From NCBI GenBank assembly GCA_000961845.1, contig LADZ01000007.1, positions 1 through 37,606 of the forward strand: a DNA stretch of 37,606 nt, written 5' to 3'. Of this stretch, positions 20,030 to 30,621 are shown piece by piece. The stretch comes from Flavobacteriales bacterium BRH_c54. Its GTDB lineage: Bacteria > Bacteroidota > Bacteroidia > Flavobacteriales_E > Vicingaceae. The notes below the pieces were generated by a model, which was not told the DNA's origin, did no database searches, and saw nothing but the letters and a program-made list of their open reading frames with translations. Position numbers and translations under genes: made by a program. Numbering within the stretch: position 1 is the stretch's first letter; every line of letters begins with the position of its first letter.

Positions 20030-20578
20030 TTAGTAATATTCAACACTTTTTATCTTAATAACCGGTTTTAATCTAAATGATCCATCACCTTCAACTACAA
20101 CAGATTGTTCGGCATCAAAATCTACCAAAATACTTATGGTTTTATTAGCTACTATATTAAATGGAGTAACAATTTTTAACCCTGTTTCATCTTGACTAGC
20201 TAATTTTAACGGATAGATGGAGTCTGTTGTGGCAACCGTATTTTGTTGTCCTAAAATTAATCTCATTTGGGTAATTTTTCCTATAGACAAATTTTGAGGA
20301 TCGACAATTACTACTGAAACATCATTTTGCAAATCAAGTAAGTTATAAATTCCGGCATTGGTATTTAAAGTTACCCAACCATTAGTGTTGTTATTGTTGG
20401 CATAATGCACCTGAATTTCTTGTACTTCAACATTTACTTCTGTAAAATTTGCAGGGGCATCTGTCATTTTTATCATCATTTTACCTGTGTTCATTTCATC
20501 TTTTGTACATCCAACAATAAATAGTCCTATTGTTAGTGCAGTTAGAATGAACATTCTTATCATTGTTTTCATGGCCAT
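20030..20578 (-). CDS. DUF4382 domain lipoprotein
   Basis: A 182-residue lipoprotein. The signal sequence ends in the lipobox F-I-V-G-C (Cys24). The mature part opens GKMMIKMTDAPANFTEVNVEVQEIQVHY, most of which is the DUF4382 signature (M-x-D-A-P-x-x-x-x-x-V-x-V-x-I-x-x-I/V-x-V-H). It continues with LLDLQNDVSVVI, GKITQMRLILG and VDFDAEQSVV, and ends with LKPVIKI as usual for this family. The domain is a beta-sandwich of unknown function found in cell-envelope proteins. It lies 31 bp downstream of the barrel-like gene and 60 bp upstream of the metalloprotease gene, which fits one operon. The start could also be the ATG at 20572. Confidence 0.87.
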   Translation of the reverse strand: MAMKTMIRMFILTALTIGLFIVGCTKDEMNTGKMMIKMTDAPANFTEVNVEVQEIQVHYANNNNTNGWVTLNTNAGIYNLLDLQNDVSVVIVDPQNLSIGKITQMRLILGQQNTVATTDSIYPLKLASQDETGLKIVTPFNIVANKTISILVDFDAEQSVVVEGDGSFRLKPVIKIKSVEYY

Positions 20579-20609: not shown

Positions 20610-21146
20610 TTAAAAGGTCACTTTAATTCCTAATCCGGGATCTAAAGAGGTCCAAACTCTTCCGTTAGTAATTACTTCAACATAAGGTTTTACATCTAAA
20701 CTAAGTGCAAATGGAATAGAAGGGATTTTGTATTCCATACCTATAATACCATCAATTCCTAAACCGACATTGCCTTCATTGTATCGGTAATATCTGTCAT
20801 TTCTGTAATAAACTAACCTTCTACCGGCTTCAAAAGCTACGTGACCACCAGCACCATAGTACCAATTTAGTCCGTCTACATCAAAAGCAGGCACATGTTT
20901 TTCGTACAATAAGGTAGCACTAATACCATGACTCCAAACTCCTATAATTCCTTCTAAAGCTGTACTGCTACCAACAAATTGTTTTATGGTTAATCCGGAA
21001 GTTTCACCGGCTCTTAACCCAATAGCGGTTTTGTAACTGGTTGAATTAATTGCTAAATCGGGCATTTTATCACCGTCCTGAGCGTTTACATTAGCAGTTA
21101 CAAAAACTGCCATTAATACTGCTGATAAAATTTTTGTTGTTTTCAT
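20610..21146 (-). CDS. Secreted barrel-like protein, first gene of the predicted regulon operon
   Basis: A 178-residue protein with a signal peptide (1-22, cut after NVNA). Mature strands alternate polar and hydrophobic residues: TAIGLRAGETSGLTIKQF, ALEGIIGVWSHGISATLLYE and GLNWYYGAGGHVAFEAG, and it ends LDPGLGIKVTF with a terminal Phe as in outer-membrane barrels. I do not recognise a named family. It leads the operon with the DUF4382 lipoprotein and metalloprotease. Upstream lie a sigma-54-like element (21180-21196) and a tandem palindrome pair (21261-21295), so it is the best candidate for control by the NtrC-type regulator at 24112-25467. Confidence 0.65.
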   Translation of the reverse strand: MKTTKILSAVLMAVFVTANVNAQDGDKMPDLAINSTSYKTAIGLRAGETSGLTIKQFVGSSTALEGIIGVWSHGISATLLYEKHVPAFDVDGLNWYYGAGGHVAFEAGRRLVYYRNDRYYRYNEGNVGLGIDGIIGMEYKIPSIPFALSLDVKPYVEVITNGRVWTSLDPGLGIKVTF

Positions 21147-21179
21147 GATTTTTAGTTTTTATGGTTTGATTAACCTTAA

Positions 21180-21196
21180 AACTAACTACATACCAA
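21180..21196 (-). promoter_or_regulatory. Sigma-54-like -24/-12 element before the 21146 operon
   Basis: On the reverse strand TTGGTATGTAGTTAGTT aligns to YTGGCACGrNNNTTGCW. The -24 T-G-G and the A are kept, and the -12 T and G are kept, but the -12 C is T. The GG is 47.5 bp from the ATG at 21146 and 94.5 bp from the centre of the distal palindrome at 21288, exactly the distance seen at 23546-23562. The position argument is stronger than the match itself. Confidence 0.45.
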
Positions 21197-21260
21197 ATTG
21201 ATTAATGCTTTTTAAATAATTGAAATACAGTTTGTTGAAGTTTTTTATGATTGTACTACT

Positions 21261-21295
21261 TTTTCAATAATGAAAAATCATTTTCAAAATGAAAA
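21261..21295. promoter_or_regulatory. Tandem palindrome pair (proposed enhancer) upstream of the 21146 operon
   Basis: TTTTCA-N4-TGAAAA at 21261-21276 and a perfect TTTTCA-N3-TGAAAA at 21281-21295, with centres about 20 bp (two helical turns) apart. They lie 122-142 bp upstream of the start codon at 21146, the usual distance for NtrC-type activator sites. The rest of the 325-bp gap 21147-21471 holds the sigma-54-like element; I see nothing else in it. Confidence 0.6.
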
Positions 21296-21471
21296 AGATA
21301 CTTATTGCTTTTTAGTGGTATTGTTATTTCGAAAGAAATTTAGTAAGATGAAACCAGAGAAATCTTCTTAGTTAAGAGCTGAAAATATTATTGTTTAAAA
21401 ACTACCAATTAAGACTTGATGCTTTTATTAATTGTTCTTTCTTTTTTTCTGCTGTGTTATTAAGACTTTAT

Positions 21472-21891
21472 CTATTTATATTGAGATGGTTCAAAAATTA
21501 ATTTAAATAAATGATTACCATTACTGTCTTTATAGTTGTAAACCATAATTACATTATTGTCTCTAAAAACTTTTAGATCGGGATTTGTTTTTATACTATT
21601 TAATATGTTTGGTTGCAAGAAGTCTTCAGCTTCGGAAACATTCATATTTTCTTTGTTCATATTTACTAAAGTATAGTTATACTGAAATGTATTTTCAGGA
21701 AGTGCTATAGCATTATCAAGTCTTGTTTCACTGTCAACCATAATGGGGCAAGATTTATTTAGTTCGCTGGCGGTTTGCATCATTTGCTTATCAAATGATG
21801 GAGATTTAAATACTATTTGTTGAATACTAACATAAACCAGTATAAAGGTTATTGACCCAACTACTATTCCAATTATTTTTTTCTTATCCAT
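21472..21891 (-). CDS. Conserved-looking single-pass membrane protein
   Basis: A 139-residue protein: N-terminal membrane anchor at about 5-25 (KIIGIVVGSITFILVYVSI), then a domain outside the cytoplasm with LNKSCPIMVDSETRLDNAIA. The latter is a pattern I have seen in unnamed Bacteroidota proteins (L-N-K-x-C-P-x-x-x-D-x-x-T-R-L-D). No enzyme motif is visible. The ATG at 21891 is chosen because it directly precedes the anchor; the in-frame start at 21951 adds 20 polar residues. It lies downstream of the terminator at 22005-22038, so it likely has its own promoter. Confidence 0.65.
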   Translation of the reverse strand: MDKKKIIGIVVGSITFILVYVSIQQIVFKSPSFDKQMMQTASELNKSCPIMVDSETRLDNAIALPENTFQYNYTLVNMNKENMNVSEAEDFLQPNILNSIKTNPDLKVFRDNNVIMVYNYKDSNGNHLFKLIFEPSQYK

Positions 21892-22004
21892 ACTTAAACT
21901 TTGAATGTTATATTCGTAATACTTTATTTTATTAGACTTATAATTTTCCAAATATATAAATATTACTTTAAAAATATGTTTATTAGATGAGTATAATAAA
22001 ATAA

Positions 22005-22038
22005 AACATCCCGAAGCTTATTAAAGCTTCGGGATGTT
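22005..22038 (-). terminator. Terminator of the receiver/coiled-coil operon
   Basis: A perfect 15-bp inverted repeat with GC-rich core (22005-22019 and 22024-22038) and a 4-nt loop, followed on the reverse strand by TTTTATTTTATT. It lies 28 bp past the stop codon at 22067. Confidence 0.9.
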
Positions 22039-22066
22039 CTGTTGAGTGAAATTAAGGAGATTAGGA

Positions 22067-23005
22067 TTATTTGTTGGCTAAACTTACTTGACTACTTTCT
22101 TTAGTTTCAATTACTAAGAATTTACTTTTTTCCCAAAATAAATCGGGGTTAGTAATTTTAATGTAGTTTACTATACCATTTTCCTCTATTAACTCGTAAC
22201 TATCTGTTGAATGGTTAGTAATAATTTCAGCTTTTTTACTATAAACAGGAATGGTTTTTACATTTCGTTTATCTACTTGTATAAAATCGCCTTTCTCAAA
22301 ATCTTCTTGCAACGATTTAGTAGCTCCAATTCCTATAATTCCACCTTCTTTAGCAACAATTTTTGATTCTTTTAACTCATCAAAAGTACCGGTTACATAA
22401 AAAGCCATGTTAATGGTATCATCTTTTTGAGCAATTATTTTCTCGGTATCTTCCAACAAAAACTTTTGGTGTTCATTTTCTAAACTCAAGAAATTGTTTT
22501 CAACGGTTAATTCTTCTAAGCTTTTAGCAAGTAAATCATTAGCTTTTTTCAGCTCGGCAGTTTGTGCCTCATAATCTTTAATTTTTTTATTGAGTCCTGC
22601 TATTTTTTTACCAAAAGAAGCTAGTCTTTTGTTTTTATCTGTTACCTGATTGTTAAGGTCTTCAATAATTCTTTTGTTTTCTGCAATTAAGTGTTCTATA
22701 AAGTTAATTTCTTGCTGAATTCTTTCTTTCTGAGTTGTGCCAGTCTCAATATTGCCTTCGTCAAAGTTGAATTTCAGGTTGTTTTCTGTTGCTGTAATTT
22801 GAGCTAAATTGGCTTCAATTTGATCGAAAGATTGTTGAACATGTTCTTCCATAGCAAGTTTTTCGTGTTCAAAAAATTCCTGAAGCTGAACATTTTCATC
22901 GTATTGTTTATAGGCAAAAAATGTTGCTCCTAAGGCTGCTACGATAAAAAATGTTAGCAATACATTTTTAAGCATTTTGTTGTTACTTTTTTCTTTTGTT
23001 TTCAT
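22067..23005 (-). CDS. Membrane-anchored coiled-coil protein (possible Cbp1-type adhesin family)
   Basis: A 312-residue protein. Residues 1-11 are basic, a membrane helix spans about 12-32, and a long coiled coil covers about 35-200 (heptads such as NKKIKDYEAQTAELKKANDL). A small C-terminal beta domain at about 205-300 contains AFYVTGTFDELKESKIVAKE, GIIGIGATKSL and KITNPDLFWEKSKFLVIE. This layout resembles Bacteroidota proteins annotated as Cbp1-family collagen-binding adhesins; that name is from memory and the binding claim is not visible in sequence. It is 49 bp downstream of a stand-alone receiver gene and shares its predicted sigma-54-type promoter. The ATG at 23005 is preferred over 23029 because it puts the basic stretch just before the helix. 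Confidence 0.7.
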   Translation of the reverse strand: MKTKEKSNNKMLKNVLLTFFIVAALGATFFAYKQYDENVQLQEFFEHEKLAMEEHVQQSFDQIEANLAQITATENNLKFNFDEGNIETGTTQKERIQQEINFIEHLIAENKRIIEDLNNQVTDKNKRLASFGKKIAGLNKKIKDYEAQTAELKKANDLLAKSLEELTVENNFLSLENEHQKFLLEDTEKIIAQKDDTINMAFYVTGTFDELKESKIVAKEGGIIGIGATKSLQEDFEKGDFIQVDKRNVKTIPVYSKKAEIITNHSTDSYELIEENGIVNYIKITNPDLFWEKSKFLVIETKESSQVSLANK

Positions 23006-23054
23006 GATTTCTAATTTTTGGTTTAACATATTTATTAGTTGATTTTTATTGGAT

Positions 23055-23513
23055 TTATATTAATTCCTCTGGTTCTTCTTTAAATTCTTTGGTAAGCAAT
23101 TTTTGTACAACAGCACCTAATCTATCTTTAGAGTTTACTGTTTTATCTATATAATCATAAACACCTTGTCTCATTAATTCACTTGTGGTGTGTGCATTTT
23201 GCTGAGAACTCATCATTATGATTTCACAATTGTCGCAATGTTTTTTAGCTTCTTTAACAATGTCTGCTCCGGTTAGTATATCGTCTTCCTCCTTATTTTC
23301 TAAATAATAATCGAGTACCATGATGTTAGTGTCGTCTTCTAACTCTTCAATACAATCGTGCGCATTTAGGTAAGATTTGATTTCAAAATCAAATTCCGGA
23401 TAAACAGCTGAATTACACAATGTGTTTAAATAATGAGTAAGTGCTTTATTGTAATACAAGTTGTCTTCAACAATTACAATCTTCAGTTTTTTCTTTGTTC
23501 TCATTGTTTTCAT
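23055..23513 (-). CDS. Stand-alone response-regulator receiver
   Basis: A 152-residue protein consisting of one REC domain. The acidic pair is Glu16-Asp17 (IVIVEDN), the phospho-acceptor Asp68 (IMVLDYYL), the switch Ser102 (IMMSSQQ) and the conserved Lys124 (YDYIDKT). There is no output domain. It shares the Y-N-K stretch right after the acidic pair (EDNLYYNKAL) with the receiver at 28384 and the NtrC-type regulator at 24112, so these are related receivers. It heads an operon with the coiled-coil membrane protein. Upstream are a -24/-12-like element, a terminator of the preceding operon, and a palindrome pair. It may relay phosphate or act by protein contact. Confidence 0.88.
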   Translation of the reverse strand: MKTMRTKKKLKIVIVEDNLYYNKALTHYLNTLCNSAVYPEFDFEIKSYLNAHDCIEELEDDTNIMVLDYYLENKEEDDILTGADIVKEAKKHCDNCEIIMMSSQQNAHTTSELMRQGVYDYIDKTVNSKDRLGAVVQKLLTKEFKEEPEELI

Positions 23514-23545
23514 GGCTATTAGTTTTAATTGTTCGAATAGGGTTA

Positions 23546-23562
23546 TTCCATTCTTGTGCCAT
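23546..23562 (-). promoter_or_regulatory. Sigma-54-like -24/-12 element before the 23513 operon
   Basis: Reverse strand ATGGCACAAGAATGGAA contains a perfect -24 TGGCAC; the -12 part TGGAA has two mismatches to TTGCA, again lacking the C. The GG is 46.5 bp from the ATG at 23513 and 94.5 bp from the palindrome centre at 23654. Confidence 0.5.
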
Positions 23563-23575
23563 GGGTAGGGATAAA

Positions 23576-23606
23576 AAATAAACCACTGAATTTCAGTGGT
23601 TTATTT
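23576..23606 (-). terminator. Terminator of the kinase/NtrC operon
   Basis: Inverted repeat of 15 bp (23576-23590 and 23592-23606), effectively a 14-bp stem with a 3-nt loop, A/T-rich outer ends and a T-rich run on the reverse strand. It lies 58 bp past the stop codon at 23664, between the palindrome pair and the -24/-12 element of the next operon. Confidence 0.85.
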
Positions 23607-23626
23607 TGGTTGAGAAACTTAGATAG

Positions 23627-23661
23627 TTTCCATTATGGAGAAATGATTTTCAAAATGAAAA
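23627..23661. promoter_or_regulatory. Tandem palindrome pair (proposed enhancer) upstream of the 23513 operon
   Basis: A perfect TTTTCA-N3-TGAAAA at 23647-23661 and a degenerate copy (TTTCCA-N3-TGGAGA) at 23627-23641, centres exactly 20 bp apart. The perfect site starts 2 bp beyond the stop codon of the receiver gene at 23664. As at 21261-21295, the better site is the distal one. Confidence 0.55.
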
Positions 23662-23663
23662 TA

Positions 23664-24083
23664 CTAAACAGTTTGTGGTAAGTATTTTTGAACACAGTCT
23701 AATACCGAGTTGTAGATATCATCTACTTCTTTATGGATGACGCAACAAATGCCACTGGCTTTCATTTTTTCAATAATGTTATAATCATCAAGACCGGTAA
23801 GTAGTACCACAGGAATATCCGGATTAACTTTCATTACTTCATTAAAAATTTGTTCACCATTCATGGTGGTAGAGTTGTTATTAATTTTTCTCCCATTTTC
23901 ATAGAGGTAATAGTCTAAAAAAATCATATCGGGCATTTCATAATTAAGTTGATTAAGCATAGATTCTCCATTACAAAAATCTTTTGTTTTTGTATTAGGA
24001 ACGGAGCTTATAACTTTAGCAAGTATGTCGGCAATAATTTTACTGTCTTCAACAATGTAGATCAATTTTTCTTGTGTTTTCAT
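23664..24083 (-). CDS. Stand-alone response-regulator receiver
   Basis: A 139-residue single REC domain with acidic Glu12-Asp13 (YIVEDSK), phospho-acceptor Asp57 (MIFLDYYL), Thr96 (VVLLTGLDD) and Lys118 (CVIHKEV). A short insertion after the phosphorylation site (about 62-74, NGRKINNNSTTMN) is unusual. No output domain. Last gene of the operon that runs from 28803; it starts 28 bp after the stop of the NtrC-type gene. It may be a phosphate sink, a target of the HPt of the hybrid kinase, or a protein-contact output. Confidence 0.88.
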   Translation of the reverse strand: MKTQEKLIYIVEDSKIIADILAKVISSVPNTKTKDFCNGESMLNQLNYEMPDMIFLDYYLYENGRKINNNSTTMNGEQIFNEVMKVNPDIPVVLLTGLDDYNIIEKMKASGICCVIHKEVDDIYNSVLDCVQKYLPQTV

Positions 24084-24111: not shown

Positions 24112-25467
24112 TTATTTTGATTTTTTATCTTCTTTTAATAAACGGTAAACAGTAGTTTGTCCTATAGCAAGTTTGTCGGCAACTAATTTAGTGTTGTTGT
24201 TACATTTCTGCATATAATGATTTACTATTCTAATTTCATACTCTCTCATGGTCATTTCATCTGTAAGTACATTAGGTAAAGCATCGTTAGAACTTAGAGA
24301 AATATCATCGGCAGTAATTTCTTTTTCTGACGACATTACAACAGCTAGTTCAATAACAGATTTTAGTTCTCTGATATTTCCTGGCCAATTGTAGCTAAGC
24401 AATTTTTTTCTGGCATTTTCGCTAATAGATTTTGGTTCCATATTATTTTCTTTACAAAATGCATCAATAAAAAATTTGGCTAAAAGTAAGGTGTCGTTAT
24501 CTCTTTCTCTTAGTGGAGGAAGATGAATTGGCAAACCAAAAAGCCTGTAGTATAAATCTTCTCTGAACTTACCATTTTTTACTTCTTCTTGAAGATTTCT
24601 GTTGGTGGCAACAATAATTCTACAATTCACTTTTATTACTTCATTTCCACCAACTCTGGTTACTTCTTTTTCTTGCAAAACCCTTAAAAGTTTGGCTTGA
24701 AAATTCATGTCCATTTCACCAATTTCATCTAAAAATAAGGTTCCACCTCCGGCTTCTTCAAATTTTCCTTTTCTTCGAGTGTCGGCACCGGTAAAAGCAC
24801 CTCTTTCGTGTCCGAACAGTTCACTTTCTATAAGTTCTGCCGGTAAGGCAGCCATATTTACGGCAACAAAAGGTTTGTCTTTTCTTGGAGAATTATAATG
24901 TATAGCTTTTGAGACTACTTCTTTACCCGTGCCTGTTTCGCCAGTAATGGTTACACTTATATTGGTTTCGGTAGCTTTTGCAATAAGTTCAAATACTTTT
25001 TTTAATGCAGCACTAGTGCCAATGATAGATTTTTCAAAAGCATATTTGCCCTGAACTTCCTTTTGTAGTGTTACTAATTGGTTTTTTAGTTTTGCATTTT
25101 TCTTAATATGATTTACAGTGTTTATTAACCTGTCTTTAATGTCTTTTGATTTTACAATATAATCGTAAGCTCCTGCTTTTAATAAATCTACAGCTGTTTC
25201 AATTTCTTCTTGTTCGGAAATTATAATAACTTCAATGTTTGGATCATAATCTTTTATTTTCTTCAATAAACTTTCTCCATCAATATCCGGCAGACGATAA
25301 TCTAAGGTAACTACATCTGGTTTTTTGGTTAACGCAGCTACTAATTCTTTTCCGTTAAGAAAAGACTCTACCACAAAATCTGGGTTTAGAGATAAGTTAT
25401 GTACCAACAGTTTATTATACCATTCATTGTCTTCCACCACATATATTTTAAAAGGCTTATTTTCCAT
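24112..25467 (-). CDS. NtrC-type sigma-54-dependent response regulator
   Basis: A 451-residue transcription activator. The receiver (1-120) has acidic Glu12-Asp13, phospho-acceptor Asp56 (VVTLDYRL), Ser84 and Lys106. A helical linker (120-145) leads to the AAA+ domain (about 148-375) with Walker A GETGTGKE (176-183), the sigma-54 contact loop GAFTGA (223-228), Walker [10 protein letters not shown] and [10 protein letters not shown] Fis-type helix-turn-helix lies at about 423-446 ([20 protein letters not shown]). The intact GAFTGA loop means it should open sigma-54 promoters from upstream enhancers. It follows the hybrid kinase by 3 bp. The palindromes TTTTCA-N3-TGAAAA at three nearby intergenic places are its probable binding sites (inference). 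Confidence 0.95.
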
Positions 25468-25470
25468 AAA

Positions 25471-27921
25471 TTAGTTTTTTGTTAGTTCTTTATTTATTAA
25501 TTCGTTTATAGTTTTATATTCTGTCACCATTTTTTCTATTAAATCGCTTACATCATCTAAGTTAGTGTTGTTTCTGCAATTTTCTTCAATTTCTTTAAGA
25601 AGATTATAAAGTAAATCGGCACCTAAATGTTTGCAAGGAGCTGAGATTTTATGAGCATGTTCGGCAATAATTTCATAGTTTTTGTCTTTTAGTAGTTTTT
25701 CCATTTCACTAATACCGGTGGTGGTTGTTTGTAAAAAGGTTTGTAGCATATCGGTGTAAAATGCTTTGTCACCATTGCTAAGTTCTTTTAGAGCAGATAA
25801 GTCTAAACTGTTCGCTTCTTTTTCAGAATCAATTGGTGCTTCAGTTGTATCTGTATTGTTATTTAATTCAATTAAGTTATTAATTTCTTGTAACAATTCT
25901 TTTTCTTTAAAAGGTTTAGCTAAACAACCATTCATTCCCGCAAATTTGTATTCTTTTTTGTTTTCTTCTGTAACAGCGGCAGTTAATGCAATAATAGGAA
26001 TATTACTTTTTGCACTGCCGTTTAGTCTACGAATTCTTTTTGTAGCTTCAATACCATCCATTTTAGGCATTCTTGCATCCATCAAAATTAAATCATAGTT
26101 GTTTCTTTTGACTTCCATAATTGCTTCAACCCCATTTATAGCTTCAGTATAACTTACAGGATATTTTTTTAAAATAGTAGACAGTAATTTTCTGTTATAT
26201 TCTTCATCATCAACAATTAGTATTTTTAATCCTTCAGGAAGTGTTAAATTGCTATCACTTTCTTTTTCTACTTTTTCATATAATTCAATTTCTGCTTCGG
26301 TTCCTAAAGGATAAGAGATTTCTATAGATACTGTTGTTCCTTTATTTGGACTACTTATAATGTCAATTTTTCCTTCGTGTAATTTTACCAACATACTTAC
26401 AATAGAAAGCCCTAAACCTGTTCCTCCGTAGTTTCTAGAAGTACTTACTTCGGCTTGTTCAAACTCTCTAAAAACTTTTTTTAATTGCTCTTTTTTCATA
26501 CCAATTCCGCTATCGGTTATTTCTAATCGAATATTGGTAAAGTGGCTACTTTTCATTACTTGAGTGAGTTGAACAGATATAGAACCTTTTTCTGTAAATT
26601 TAATAGAATTGCTAATGAGGTTAAGTAAAATTTGTCGTAGTCGAAAAGGATCTCCTAATAAAATTAATCCATCATCAGTTTTTATATCACATTTAATTTC
26701 AATCTGTTTTTCTTTTGCTAATGGCTTAACAAAAGTGATAACGTCTCTTACAAATTCATTTGGTCTGAAACCAATAGATTCTAATTTTAACTTACCCGAT
26801 TGAAGTTTGGTAAAGTCTAACACATCATTAATTAAATAAAGTAAGTGATCAATAGACTTACGTACCATGGTTAATTGCTCTTTTTGTTCAGGGGTTAGCG
26901 GTCCTTTGTCTATTTGCTCTGTAAAACCAGCAATAGCATTCATAGGAGTTCTGATTTCATGACTCATATTAGCTAAAAATCTTTCTTTAGTAACGGCTAA
27001 GTCTTCTGCTTTTGCTTTAGCTTGTTTAAGAATTTTTCTATATCGGGCACTGTTCTGCACATAATTTATAATAATGTATGCCATAATTACTAACAACAAA
27101 GCGGTTAATACACAAAAAATAGCAATTTGTGTATTGGTTTCTTTCATGGCTTTTTCGGCCTCTTCGGTATGGATAGCTATAGAAAGTAATTCCTTAGCTT
27201 CAATTACATTTAACAGGTTTTTTATTCGTTTACTTATTTCTTTATCTTGTACTAATAAAGTTAACTCTTGATTTTTAAGAACAGTTTCAATGTTTTTTTC
27301 TTCTTTTTTAATGGAAGTAATTTCTTCATTAATTTCTTCAATGCTATATTGTTTTTCGCTTTTTTCAGTAGAATCAGGTTTGTTTTTTTTACCAAATATT
27401 CTCTGAATAATATTAGGTTTAAGTTCTGTTTTGGTAGTTTCTTCTATAAGTTTACCATTGTTAGCGGTATCTTTTTTTTCTATATTTATAATTACCTTAT
27501 CTAAAGCAGTTTGAACTCGGTACTTATCTTGAATTACTAAAAGTTCATTAAGAACATTAAATTTTTCTGCTATTAAAATTTCTAAGGTATCAATCTCGTG
27601 CGACAATATTTTTTTATCTGCACTATACTTATGAAGTCTCCTAAGTTTATCGTTAGATCTTTCTGCTGCTTTGTAAAATTTGTTTAAATATAAAGTGTCT
27701 CTAATAAGACTATAAGATTTAACGCTATTTTCAGCCTCAGCAACATCATTCATTAATGATTTTGCTGTGATTAATCTCATGTCAACACGAGCTTCTTTAC
27801 TAATACTCGTAACTATTTGTGAAAAACGTTTATAAGCATAAATCCCGGTAATACTCACTAACACCATAATTACCATCATTATGGCGAGAATTTTATATTG
27901 AAAAGCGGTTCTTTTATTCAT
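25471..27921 (-). CDS. Membrane hybrid histidine kinase with REC and HPt
   Basis: An 816-residue sensor kinase. Membrane helix 1 is at about 10-30 and helix 2 at about 264-287. The helical periplasmic sensor between them (31-263) carries a charged, coiled insertion at about 150-230. HisKA follows with the phospho-acceptor His321 in SHEIRTPMNA, then HATPase with LLNLISNSIKFTEKG (N box), DSGIGM (G1, 470-475) and GGTGLGLSI (G2, 499-507). The receiver (about 565-685) has Asp615 (ILMDARMP) and Lys669. The HPt domain (about 705-805) has His757 in AHKISAPCKHLGA. Phosphate can thus pass His-Asp-His and on to one of the separate receivers encoded beside it. It ends 3 bp before the NtrC-type gene, its most likely final target. 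The stimulus is unknown. Confidence 0.95.
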   Translation of the reverse strand: MNKRTAFQYKILAIMMVIMVLVSITGIYAYKRFSQIVTSISKEARVDMRLITAKSLMNDVAEAENSVKSYSLIRDTLYLNKFYKAAERSNDKLRRLHKYSADKKILSHEIDTLEILIAEKFNVLNELLVIQDKYRVQTALDKVIINIEKKDTANNGKLIEETTKTELKPNIIQRIFGKKNKPDSTEKSEKQYSIEEINEEITSIKKEEKNIETVLKNQELTLLVQDKEISKRIKNLLNVIEAKELLSIAIHTEEAEKAMKETNTQIAIFCVLTALLLVIMAYIIINYVQNSARYRKILKQAKAKAEDLAVTKERFLANMSHEIRTPMNAIAGFTEQIDKGPLTPEQKEQLTMVRKSIDHLLYLINDVLDFTKLQSGKLKLESIGFRPNEFVRDVITFVKPLAKEKQIEIKCDIKTDDGLILLGDPFRLRQILLNLISNSIKFTEKGSISVQLTQVMKSSHFTNIRLEITDSGIGMKKEQLKKVFREFEQAEVSTSRNYGGTGLGLSIVSMLVKLHEGKIDIISSPNKGTTVSIEISYPLGTEAEIELYEKVEKESDSNLTLPEGLKILIVDDEEYNRKLLSTILKKYPVSYTEAINGVEAIMEVKRNNYDLILMDARMPKMDGIEATKRIRRLNGSAKSNIPIIALTAAVTEENKKEYKFAGMNGCLAKPFKEKELLQEINNLIELNNNTDTTEAPIDSEKEANSLDLSALKELSNGDKAFYTDMLQTFLQTTTTGISEMEKLLKDKNYEIIAEHAHKISAPCKHLGADLLYNLLKEIEENCRNNTNLDDVSDLIEKMVTEYKTINELINKELTKN

Positions 27922-27938: not shown

Positions 27939-28367
27939 TTAATGATACACAATTCTATCAATATATCCTCTACAAAAGAAGCTTATTATTTCATCAGAGT
28001 AGTTATCTTTTAATAAATGTTCTCCAAAAAACAACTGGTTATACTTCTGAAATGTCTTAATTACTTTTGTAATATCAGTACTAATTCCGTCAGAAGTTAG
28101 CAAAACAATGATGCAATCGGGGCTGTTTTTAAATAAATTAGGCAGCAAAACTTCATCATTATTTATAAAAAAAGCAGCATCTAAAAATACCAAATCGAGC
28201 TTGTTTTTTACCTGTTCATTTGTTTTTTGAATATTGGTTTCTGTAAAAAGCTCAATGGTAGCATTTTCATAATCATCAACAACATTATTCAATATTCTTG
28301 ATAATTGACGCTGAAATTTTAAATCGCTATCAGCCACTAAAATACGATATTTTTTAGGTAAAGTCAT
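27939..28367 (-). CDS. Divergent, possibly degenerate receiver protein
   Basis: A 142-residue REC-like protein. The fold is recognisable: YRILVADSDLKFQRQLSRIL at the start, LDLVFLDAAFF with Asp63 at the phosphorylation position, and CIIVLLTSDG with Thr91. However, the conserved Lys of strand 5 is missing (the region reads NQLFFGEHLL), and the acidic pair is reduced to Asp13 and Asp15. It may be a pseudo-receiver that works by protein contact. The ATG at 28367 is used; the longer frame from 28400 would overlap the gene upstream by 17 bp. It lies between receiver 28384 and the hybrid kinase in the same operon. Confidence 0.75.
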   Translation of the reverse strand: MTLPKKYRILVADSDLKFQRQLSRILNNVVDDYENATIELFTETNIQKTNEQVKNKLDLVFLDAAFFINNDEVLLPNLFKNSPDCIIVLLTSDGISTDITKVIKTFQKYNQLFFGEHLLKDNYSDEIISFFCRGYIDRIVYH

Positions 28368-28383
28368 AATTTGTTTTGTAGGG

Positions 28384-28803
28384 TTAAGAAAAATTAACAT
28401 TGGTAAATTCTTCTACAAAATAGCACGACTTTTCTAGAGCGTCCTTATCTTTATAAATAAAAGCAGCAGCACCATTATTAATGGTTTTTTCTGCTGTAAA
28501 CGGATTACTCGATTGAGAAATGATTACTATTTTACAATCAGCACATTTTTTTTGAATTACATCCATTACATCAATAGCAGTAACACCCTCTCCTAAGTAG
28601 TAATCTAAAAATACAATGTTTGTATCTGCTTTTAGGTTTCTTAAGAAATCATCAAAATGAGCATAAGATTCAATTTCATATTTAAAACCTTTAGCATCGG
28701 CAAGCAATTTGGTGTAGTAATCCAGCTTTTTACAAATAATTTTATTGTAAAAAGAGCTATCTTCTAACACTGCTATTTTCAATTTTTTACCACTATTTTC
28801 CAT
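28384..28803 (-). CDS. Stand-alone response-regulator receiver, first gene of the signalling operon
   Basis: A 139-residue REC protein: acidic Glu14-Asp15 (AVLEDSSFYNK), Asp67 (NIVFLDYYL), Ser96 (IVIISQSS) and Lys118 (FIYKDKD). It resembles the receiver at 23055 along its length, including ADTNIVFLDYYL versus DDTNIMVLDYYL and the C-x-x-C before the Ser strand, so the two are paralogues. The ATG at 28803 is preferred; an in-frame start at 28845 would run through the -24/-12-like element. The genes at 28384, 27939, 25471, 24112 and 23664 follow at short spacing and form one operon ended by the terminator at 23576-23606. Confidence 0.87.
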   Translation of the reverse strand: MENSGKKLKIAVLEDSSFYNKIICKKLDYYTKLLADAKGFKYEIESYAHFDDFLRNLKADTNIVFLDYYLGEGVTAIDVMDVIQKKCADCKIVIISQSSNPFTAEKTINNGAAAFIYKDKDALEKSCYFVEEFTNVNFS

Positions 28804-28828
28804 ATAAAGTATATTTTGATTTATATCA

Positions 28829-28845
28829 GACAAACCAAATACCAT
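28829..28845 (-). promoter_or_regulatory. Sigma-54-like -24/-12 element before the signalling operon
   Basis: Reverse strand ATGGTATTTGGTTTGTC keeps the -24 TGG and A and a -12 TTG, but has T instead of the -12 C. The GG is 39.5 bp from the ATG at 28803 and 111.5 and 131.5 bp from the two palindrome centres. It shares the TGGTAT start with the element at 21180-21196. Confidence 0.42.
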
Positions 28846-28946: not shown

Positions 28947-28981
28947 TTTTCATTTTGAAAATAAAGTTTTCAGATTGAAAA
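28947..28981. promoter_or_regulatory. Tandem palindrome pair (proposed enhancer) between the signalling operon and the TPR/PD40 gene
   Basis: Two perfect TTTTCA-N3-TGAAAA sites at 28947-28961 and 28967-28981, centres exactly 20 bp apart. They lie 151-171 bp from the operon start at 28803 and 94-114 bp from the divergent start at 29068, so they could serve either gene. Only the 28803 side has a -24/-12-like element. Confidence 0.6.
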
Positions 28982-29067: not shown

Positions 29068-30621
29068 ATGAAAATGAAACGTACAATTTTGCTATTAGTG
29101 GTGTTAATTTCTCAAACATTATTGGGGCAAAAATTACATTACGAATTACCTGATAATGCTAATAAAATGTATAGCAATGGTAATTTTATGAAAGCCAAAG
29201 AGCTTTATAGAGAATTGTATAAAAAGAATCAAAATAACACTGAATTTAAATTTAGATTTGGCGTGAGTTTGCTTAATTCTTACGAGTGGGAAGATGGAAT
29301 TAAAATGTTGGAACAAGTTTCTAAAAAGTCTGATGTTTCTAATGAGGTGTGGTACTATTTAGGGAAGGGCTATCATTTAACCAACAGGTATGATTTAGCC
29401 ATTAAAATGTTTGAGAAATACATAGAAAATGATGCTAATTCGGAAATGGCCGAAAAAAGTCGAAGAAGAATTAATATGTGTAACAATGCCAAGCAATTAG
29501 TGAAGTTCCCGGTGAGTACCCATTTTGAAAATTTAGGTAAATATATCAATTCAAAAGGAAAAGAATATTTTCCTATTATTACTCCAAACGAATACCAGCT
29601 AATGTTTACCACCAGAAGAGAAGGAACAACCGGTAGAATTTATGATTTAGAAGGGTATTACACAGCAGACATTTACGGATCAACTTTTAGAAGTGGAAAA
29701 TGGTCTAAAACACGTTCTATTAATTATCCTAATTCTTATGGTAATGAGCAAGTAGCGGGAATTTCTGAAAATGGTAATTATGTGTTTTATTATGTGGACA
29801 ATCCTAAAGAAAAAAATACTTTGTACATGGCAGAAATGGGAAAACGCTCTTATACCAAAGCCAAAAAAATTGATAACAAATTAATTAATGATAAAAGCTC
29901 CAAACAACTTAGTGCCACAATTTCCAACGATGGTCAATTGATGGTTTTTTCGAGCGAGAAAAAAGAGGGTTATGGAGCTTCAGATCTTTATTTTGTGAAA
30001 AAGTTACCTAATGGAAAGTGGGGAAATCCATCTAATATGGGAGAGCATATCAATACCAATTTAAATGAGATTAATCCTTATTTAATTGATGAAGGTAAAA
30101 CTTTATATTTTGCATCAGAAGGGCATAACAGTATTGGTGGTTATGATGTGTTTAAATCTACTTTTGATGAAGAAACACAAACTTGGTCGAAACCCATAAA
30201 CATTGGTTATCCGCTAAATACGCCAGACGATAATACAAGTATCTGTTTCTCAGAAAATAAACAATTTGTTTACTTATCAGCTTATAGAAGTGATTCGGAA
30301 GGAGATTTAGACATTTACAGGGTTGAATTAAAGGATGAAGCAACTCAACTAACTACTGTAAAAGGAATGGTTTATAATGGAGATTCTACTTTAGTAAATT
30401 ATTCTATGCAAATAGAAGCCTTTAAAGAAGAAGGTGGCGATTTACAAGGTATTTTTGAAGTGAATCATAATAAAGGAAGCTATATTATGATTTTGCCTCC
30501 TAATAAATATGTCTTAAAAATAGCTGATAATACAGGAAAAACCATAGAAAAGAAACTATGGATTAAAGACAGGAATTTATATAAAGAAGAGCTGGAGCAA
30601 AATATTATCCTTTCGGAATAA
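29068..30621 (+). CDS. TPR and PD40-repeat envelope protein
   Basis: A 517-residue exported protein. After a signal peptide (1-20, ending LLGQ) come two to three TPR units at about 28-138 (ANKMYSNGNFMKAKELYREL, VWYYLGKGYHLTNRYDLAIK). A PD40 beta-propeller at about 160-430 has blades such as ATISNDGQLMVFSSEKKEG, NPYLIDEGKTLYFASEGHN and ICFSENKQFVYLSAY. A short carboxypeptidase-regulatory-like beta domain closes the protein (GSYIMILPPNKYVLKI). It lacks the OmpA domain seen in the related protein at 5582-7660; that relative carries the same PD40 and beta-domain order. Such proteins accompany type IX secretion and cell-surface systems in Bacteroidota; a precise role is not known. It is divergent from the signalling operon and shares the intergenic region with the palindrome pair. 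Confidence 0.83.
   Translation: MKMKRTILLLVVLISQTLLGQKLHYELPDNANKMYSNGNFMKAKELYRELYKKNQNNTEFKFRFGVSLLNSYEWEDGIKMLEQVSKKSDVSNEVWYYLGKGYHLTNRYDLAIKMFEKYIENDANSEMAEKSRRRINMCNNAKQLVKFPVSTHFENLGKYINSKGKEYFPIITPNEYQLMFTTRREGTTGRIYDLEGYYTADIYGSTFRSGKWSKTRSINYPNSYGNEQVAGISENGNYVFYYVDNPKEKNTLYMAEMGKRSYTKAKKIDNKLINDKSSKQLSATISNDGQLMVFSSEKKEGYGASDLYFVKKLPNGKWGNPSNMGEHINTNLNEINPYLIDEGKTLYFASEGHNSIGGYDVFKSTFDEETQTWSKPINIGYPLNTPDDNTSICFSENKQFVYLSAYRSDSEGDLDIYRVELKDEATQLTTVKGMVYNGDSTLVNYSMQIEAFKEEGGDLQGIFEVNHNKGSYIMILPPNKYVLKIADNTGKTIEKKLWIKDRNLYKEELEQNIILSE

Follow-up and report, generated by a model that had tools for sequence, protein, structure and literature searches.

The response regulators NtrC, ZraR, LuxO and AtoC combine a receiver, an AAA+ domain with the motif GAFTGA and a C-terminal DNA-binding end, and act from distant operators. 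ZraR is said to control its own operon in the accessible part of PMC12316311, which treats sigma-54 across phyla including the Flavobacteriia. In the Vibrio qrr enhancers, the sites of LuxO, tandem activator sites precede one sigma-54 promoter and the loop lengths fall into clusters from about 80 to 120 base pairs (bp), displaced by about 11 bp (PMC4740811, accessible part). A predicted system of this kind was found in a stretch of 37,606 nucleotides, here called the window, from Flavobacteriales bacterium BRH_c54 (contig LADZ01000007.1, positions 1 to 37,606). It resembles the four regulators in the receiver and GAFTGA domain of its predicted activator, in a putative DNA-binding end and in its candidate distant operators, ZraR in the control, here predicted, of its own operon, and the qrr enhancers in its paired sites, single promoter and clustered loop lengths. 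It is unlike the four regulators in its operator, TTTTCA-N3-TGAAAA, and in a hybrid Hpt kinase encoded beside lone receivers. Judged from the sequence, the window in all likelihood holds the centre of a sigma-54 regulon that governs envelope genes and its own expression. The regulon is judged to be real and conserved; its autoregulation is probable.

Sigma-54 control of the bacterial exterior has been described (PMC3162934), and the targets predicted here are likewise outer-membrane or surface proteins; the accessible main text of that paper does not mention Bacteroidetes, Flavobacter or Cytophaga. One predicted target belongs by its family score to the same family as Cbp1 of Bacteroides fragilis (PMC3949742), its function here being a prediction; in the accessible text of that paper the string 'regulat' occurs once and 'operon' never. 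No paper on the regulon was found by title or beginning of abstract among the matches listed from the open-licence literature.

Predicted operators and promoters of the window

Promoters are named below by the start of their first gene. The source genome of the window is numbered G000, and the genomes G002, G004 and G031 carry orthologs of the activator with 96, 94 and 82 per cent identity; L numbers denote extracted loci. The following elements were located:

21281-21295, minus strand: distal operator of the 21146 promoter, TTTTCATTTTGAAAA, the same palindrome in G002, G004 and G031
21261-21276, minus strand: proximal operator of the 21146 promoter, whose perfect arms flank a spacer of 4 bases
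21179-21195, minus strand: sigma-54-like -24/-12 element of the 21146 promoter, TGGTATGTAGTTAGTTT, GG-N10-GT
23647-23661, minus strand: distal operator of the 23513 promoter, TTTTCATTTTGAAAA
23627-23641, minus strand: proximal operator of the 23513 promoter, degenerate
23545-23561, minus strand: sigma-54-like -24/-12 element of the 23513 promoter, TGGCACAAGAATGGAAT, GG-N10-GA, near-identical in G002 and G004 and TGGTATGACTTTAGGAT in G031
about 23573-23606, minus strand: terminator-like hairpin followed by a T run, read by eye, at the end of the activator operon and between the enhancer and the 23513 promoter
28967-28981, minus strand: distal operator of the activator operon, TTTTCAATCTGAAAA
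28947-28961, minus strand: proximal operator of the activator operon, TTTTCAAAATGAAAA
28828-28844, minus strand: third sigma-54-like -24/-12 element, TGGTATTTGGTTTGTCT, GG-N10-GT, overlapping the called start of open reading frame (ORF) 28384-28845

At the 21146 promoter the centre of the distal palindrome is at -142.0 and the GG at -47.5 relative to the start codon; at the 23513 promoter they are at -141.0 and -46.5. The recomputed distance from distal palindrome to GG is 94.5 bp in both cases, in agreement with the first-pass annotation, whose positions of the GG and -24 parts (TGGTAT and TGGCAC) were recovered as well. The proximal centre is 75.0 bp from the GG at the 21146 promoter, 19.5 bp nearer than the distal one, and 74.5 bp at the 23513 promoter, 20 bp nearer. 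The shared 94.5 bp is a proximal distance of a 75-bp class, described below, plus the spacing of the pair.

The third promoter was overlooked at first, its -24 element being hidden under the called start of ORF 28384-28845. It has two perfect palindromes 20 bp apart, with the GG 111.5 and 131.5 bp from their centres, and is about 37 bp (about 3.5 turns) longer than the other two. In G004 the reading frame from the upstream ATG, equivalent to 28845, runs into a TGA (read by eye). Given this broken frame and the promoter-like element lying on the first ATG, the real start is probably 28803 and not 28845; the element then stands 39.5 bp before the start, comparable to the 47.5 and 46.5 bp of the other promoters. 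All three promoters have the form GG-N10-G, with a poor -12 part that ends in GT, GA and GT in place of GC.

The DNA between enhancer and promoter had been described as unlike at the two promoters, with a terminator in the 23513 case. The sequences do differ, and the hairpin at 23573-23606, which is absent from the output of the terminator scan, can be read by eye. These differences bear on the possibility that both promoters arose from one regulatory cassette by duplication and later divergence. Site pairs and spacing agree and the 35-bp pair block aligns without gaps, but the hairpin is present in one promoter only and the same geometry was found at different genes in other species, which together with the unlike intervening DNA makes a duplication quite improbable.

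The palindrome TTTTCANNNTGAAAA is hardly enriched genome-wide, since it has six copies in the 2.9 Mb assembly and its reversed control has four. Of the six copies, four stand in the window beside the activator genes, and on the strength of this clustering the palindromes as a class are judged not to be chance. Totals in the four genomes with the ortholog were 6, 7, 9 and 7 (reversed controls 4, 3, 4 and 2), and in G001, G003 and G005, of the same genus, where the best activator matches reach 44-46 per cent identity, 4, 4 and 5 (controls 3, 2 and 1). Palindromes with the spacer TTT or AAA numbered 3, 4, 4 and 4 in the ortholog genomes versus 0, 0 and 1 in the other three.

Distal distances at the barrel (21146) and receiver (23513) promoters were 94.5 and 94.5 bp in G002, 94.5 and 96.5 bp in G004, and 95.5 and 93.5 bp in G031. 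Conservation of the spacing in relatives had been proposed as a check; the equality to the base is not conserved, being kept in two of the four close genomes (G000 and G002) and 2 bp off in the other two. In G002, G004 and G031 alike, the third promoter has 108.5 bp between its proximal site and its GG. In G031 this promoter precedes DUF4382-like and Cbp1-like genes, and since these two stand ahead of the receiver it is tied to the activator genes through a putative operon.

Genes of the predicted regulon

The genes assigned to the three promoters are:

28384-28803, minus strand: lone receiver protein, start corrected to 28803, first gene of the activator operon
27939-28400, minus strand: small protein of the activator operon, without a Pfam family
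25471-27921, minus strand: hybrid sensor kinase, CHASE3-HisKA-HATPase-receiver-Hpt by domain search
24112-25467, minus strand: likely activator, receiver, sigma-54 AAA+ domain (GAFTGA) and a helix-turn-helix-like C-terminus with IGQTTVYR
23664-24083, minus strand: lone receiver protein, last gene of the activator operon
23055-23513, minus strand: predicted target, lone receiver domain protein (PF00072)
22067-23029, minus strand: predicted target, Cbp1-family coiled-coil surface protein (NF052320, 168.9 bits, cut-off 90)
20610-21146, minus strand: predicted target, small outer-membrane barrel, modelled with ten strands at a mean pLDDT of 80.5
20030-20578, minus strand: DUF4382 protein (PF14321), probable second gene of the barrel operon

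The product of 24112-25467 is, from its domains, the likely activator, a response regulator of the NtrC type. Among the best 25 of 93 NCBIfam models none reached its cut-off with this protein, and the conserved C-terminal end was read by eye as a recognition helix. The first-pass annotation had made its reading depend on the presence of rpoN, and one rpoN gene was found in the assembly (95 per cent complete; E-value 8.7e-55). The C-terminal end of RpoN carries ARRTIAKYRE, a stretch that resembles the RpoN box.

The DUF4382 gene was grouped with the barrel gene because the gap between them is 31 bases. The nearest solved folds to the barrel model, both weak matches, are the N-domain of OprF (E 6e-4) and the transmembrane domain of OmpA (E 1e-3). 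At 22003-22040, 3' of the Cbp1-like gene, there is a strong terminator-like hairpin of 17 pairs. The divergent gene 29068-30621 adjoins the activator operon and has in common with it the intergenic region that holds the operator pair; it encodes a TPR and PD40 protein that resembles the CHU_0125 and PorE families with scores below their cut-offs. That the palindromes might serve this gene was considered and rejected, as that strand is without a consistent sigma-54 box.

Operator pairs and promoter spacing across Bacteroidota

The sample comprised 82 loci: the best 80 of 244 loci of activator relatives, the window and one locus of G031. Thresholds and motif were fixed after the window and its near relatives had been seen. 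In the 80 loci, palindromes with one mismatch numbered 75, versus 10 for the reversed pattern. With a relaxed operator, its third base left free, 35 pairs were spaced at 20 bp, 10 at 19 bp and 5 at 21 bp, while every other spacing from 10 to 60 bp had 0-3 pairs. Slightly wider thresholds gave 42 operator pairs in the 82 loci. A sigma-54-like box of the set score lay downstream of the pair in 32 of the 42 cases on the activator strand versus 4 of 42 on the other strand, which is a fair control because the operator pair is palindromic. In 200 shuffles of the activator-strand segments the count averaged 1.14 with a maximum of 4, and with both strands counted there were 36 boxes versus a mean of 2.05 in 20 shuffles. 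A -12 GC was present in 16 of the 36 by hand count, the scoring itself favouring GC.

Cultured relatives with the system include Crocinitomix algicola (L070) and Roseivirga pacifica (L101). Pairs were present in 31 of 53 loci (L062-L113 and L135, more similar and mostly sharing the neighbourhood), and the other 27 loci had none; this split followed similarity rank and neighbourhood and was drawn after the results table had been seen, and three of the 27 entered the tree. At 28 of the 31 promoters examined (hand count) the first gene resembles a protein of the window neighbourhood, from the classes kinase, lone receiver, small protein, Cbp1-like, small barrel and DUF4382. It is unlike them at three promoters (L071, L106 and L108 upstream). 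Locus L080, of Bacteroidota type, comes from a contig titled, probably in error, as a Rickettsiales metagenome-assembled genome; in the tree it falls beside Roseivirga. The first-pass view of sigma-54 promoters with an upstream activator site gains from these counts: to rpoN and to a GAFTGA activator encoded between the promoters they add sigma-54-like boxes that lie mostly on one strand in many Bacteroidota.

For the spacing, 35 distances were compiled by hand, 30 from the 36 box matches and five others. Left out of the 36 were two each of L062 and L063, near-copies of the window promoters, and the opposite-strand matches of L063 and L077; added were the receiver and barrel promoters of the window and of G031, and one restored value of L063. 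The distance from proximal centre to GG was 62.5-63.5 or 73.5-76.5 bp in 24 of the 35 promoters, which span several families and stand upstream of different genes. Shuffles placed a mean of 0.07 and at most 2 boxes in these ranges, versus 20 of 32 observed, the ranges having been picked after the data were seen. When GG alone was counted without a promoter score (42 pairs), 11 lay at 75.5, 7 at 74.5, 5 at 73.5, 6 at 62.5 and 5 at 63.5 bp, with further peaks of 6 at 85.5 and 4 at 100.5 bp and a mean of 1.26 per offset; on the other strand single offsets reached 5, with a mean of 1.37. The peak at 85.5 bp may be the GG at the -12 of boxes that start at 74.5 bp.

We therefore claim a preference for two distances, separated by about 12 bp, and not a ladder over the whole range. 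The first distances had suggested a ladder of helical turns, rising by about 11 bp a step between 63 and 112 bp, which was dropped because the 11 distances above 80 bp are unphased (R = 0.14 for a period of 11 bp and 0.11 for one of 10.5 bp). The two clusters below 80 bp account for the overall Rayleigh value. Helical quantisation as in the qrr enhancers, with a displacement of about 11 bp over the whole range, was accordingly absent: this family has sharp clusters at 63 and 75 bp, and its longer distances are unphased. In other groups the largest share of enhancers lies within 100 nucleotides of the closest site, and distances of 100-250 bp are given (PMC4641369 and PMC6615313, accessible parts).

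The sites and promoters might be real and their exact spacing unselected, the equality in the window then stemming from common descent or from chance in a loosely bounded range. The third promoter at 111.5 bp, the 2-bp deviations in G004 and G031 and the lack of phasing above 80 bp fit such a range; the two narrow clusters, shared by promoters of several families before different genes, and their rarity in shuffles do not, and we hold unselected spacing to be possible, if somewhat unlikely. Of the selected geometry that the first-pass annotation had proposed, the part that stands is the preference for two distances; phasing in general is unsupported, given the missing phase at longer range and the 37 bp of additional length at the third promoter. 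The first-pass annotation was correct in its main point, but the exact match of the two distances is a near-coincidence within a narrow preferred range.

Predicted binding specificity and the proposed switch

A profile of the operator pair, built with the sites of the four ortholog genomes and applied to the best 150 candidates per genome, gave best E-values of 2e-6, 7e-7, 5e-7 and 3e-5 in these four, and of 0.009 to 0.056 in six genomes without a close ortholog (G021 has a 60 per cent relative). A fourth pair of G000, outside the window at C43:13565-13599 (L163:1966-2000) and not used in building the profile, scored 4e-5 and precedes the gene of a 210-amino-acid outer-membrane barrel. Before the same gene in G004 (L148) the pair is weaker, with an E-value of 0.0105 that does not surpass the top value among the six; in G002, C34 holds a match that scored 0.003. 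At the fourth pair a GG 64.5 bp from the proximal centre is conserved in G000 and G004, with -24 and -12 parts that are poor by eye. Exact palindromes were examined at seven other loci of G000, G002, G004 and G031, the fourth pair included and L146 and L162 being one site; none of these loci had a box scoring at least 6.

In the putative recognition helix, the residue after IG (or IS, MG, VG) is glutamine in 14 loci with pairs. The commonest third operator base is T in 12 of these 14 versus 1 of the 17 loci in which another residue stands there (Fisher p 7.6e-6, uncorrected for descent); ties for the majority base were broken by listing order, as in L104. On a tree made without the DNA-binding end (34 rows, bootstrap not settled) the T requires 4 changes versus 10.6 in shuffles, so the covariation is partly shared descent. 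The sister loci L101 and L080 both have glutamine and an unlike operator base.

This covariation also bears on a reading in which the palindromes bind an unrelated regulator of ordinary (sigma-A) promoters and the GG elements are chance. The -12 elements are weak in this genome, and AT-rich DNA is rich in promoter-like sites: a sigma-70 consensus scan gave 40, below the chance level of 45.7 in shuffles. Chance elements would explain neither the strand bias of the boxes nor the GG peaks at fixed offsets, and an unrelated regulator would account poorly for pairs that track the activator neighbourhood, being missing from all 27 other loci, and for a helix residue that covaries with the operator base. 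We regard this reading as highly improbable.

A sigma-54 regulon run by the activator of the window remains the preferred reading, and several observations weigh against it, besides the unphased longer distances. The -12 parts of all three promoters are without the C of GC. The canonical form TTGGCAY-N5-TTGCW, found at one other place in the genome, does have it. The C-terminus of the activator matched no Pfam helix-turn-helix at E 0.001, and the exact string GAFTGA was found in 67 of 81 aligned activators. Operator pairs were missing at the thresholds used from 22 of the 53 group loci, some of them on short contigs, and the loci are related by descent, so that the counts are not independent. 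The fourth pair has no box scoring at least 6 in L163 or L148, and two glutamine loci, L080 and L092, are without a T-majority operator.

The canonical element, TTGGCACAGAGTTTGCT (L192, G000:C11:26829-26845), lies between two genes with signal-like N-termini and is identical in G002 and G004. No operator of the TTTTCA-N3-TGAAAA type was seen by eye within 130 bases upstream, and L192 is probably a target of another activator.

In the mechanism that we propose, the kinase, through its receiver and Hpt domains, and probably also the lone receivers, would pass phosphate to the NtrC-type activator. Activator dimers would bind the paired palindromes, which at about 20 bp (about two turns) apart should lie on one face of the DNA, and from there could start a hexamer, as expected from the family. 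The DNA would then loop and the hexamer meet sigma-54 polymerase at the -24/-12 element, across a stretch from proximal centre to GG that measures about 75 bp at two promoters and, for the operon itself, about 110 bp. Predicted targets are the signalling operon, the lone receiver with the Cbp1-like surface protein, and the small outer-membrane barrel with the DUF4382 protein. The equal distances of 94.5 bp would arise because the same activator needs nearly the same reach at both promoters, within about 1-2 bp. The switch would likely serve to tune the cell surface in response to a signal that the kinase senses.

A bolder proposal is a molecular ruler across Bacteroidota, in which target promoters require operators paired at 20 bp to lie 63 or 75 bp from the -24, longer unphased spacing is kept for the activator's own operon and gives weaker or differently timed self-activation, and one residue of the recognition helix sets the third operator base, glutamine reading T. 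In this full form it is speculative and rather unlikely.

The switch seems to occur in many Bacteroidota and to be undescribed as such, with parts of known kinds. Sigma-54 regulation in this phylum is little explored in the literature found, and a predicted regulator, operator and target set are now available for many species. The loop lengths that occur in nature within one activator family make up a data set on the importance of enhancer spacing, and the pairing of helix and operator suggests a specificity rule that can be tested.

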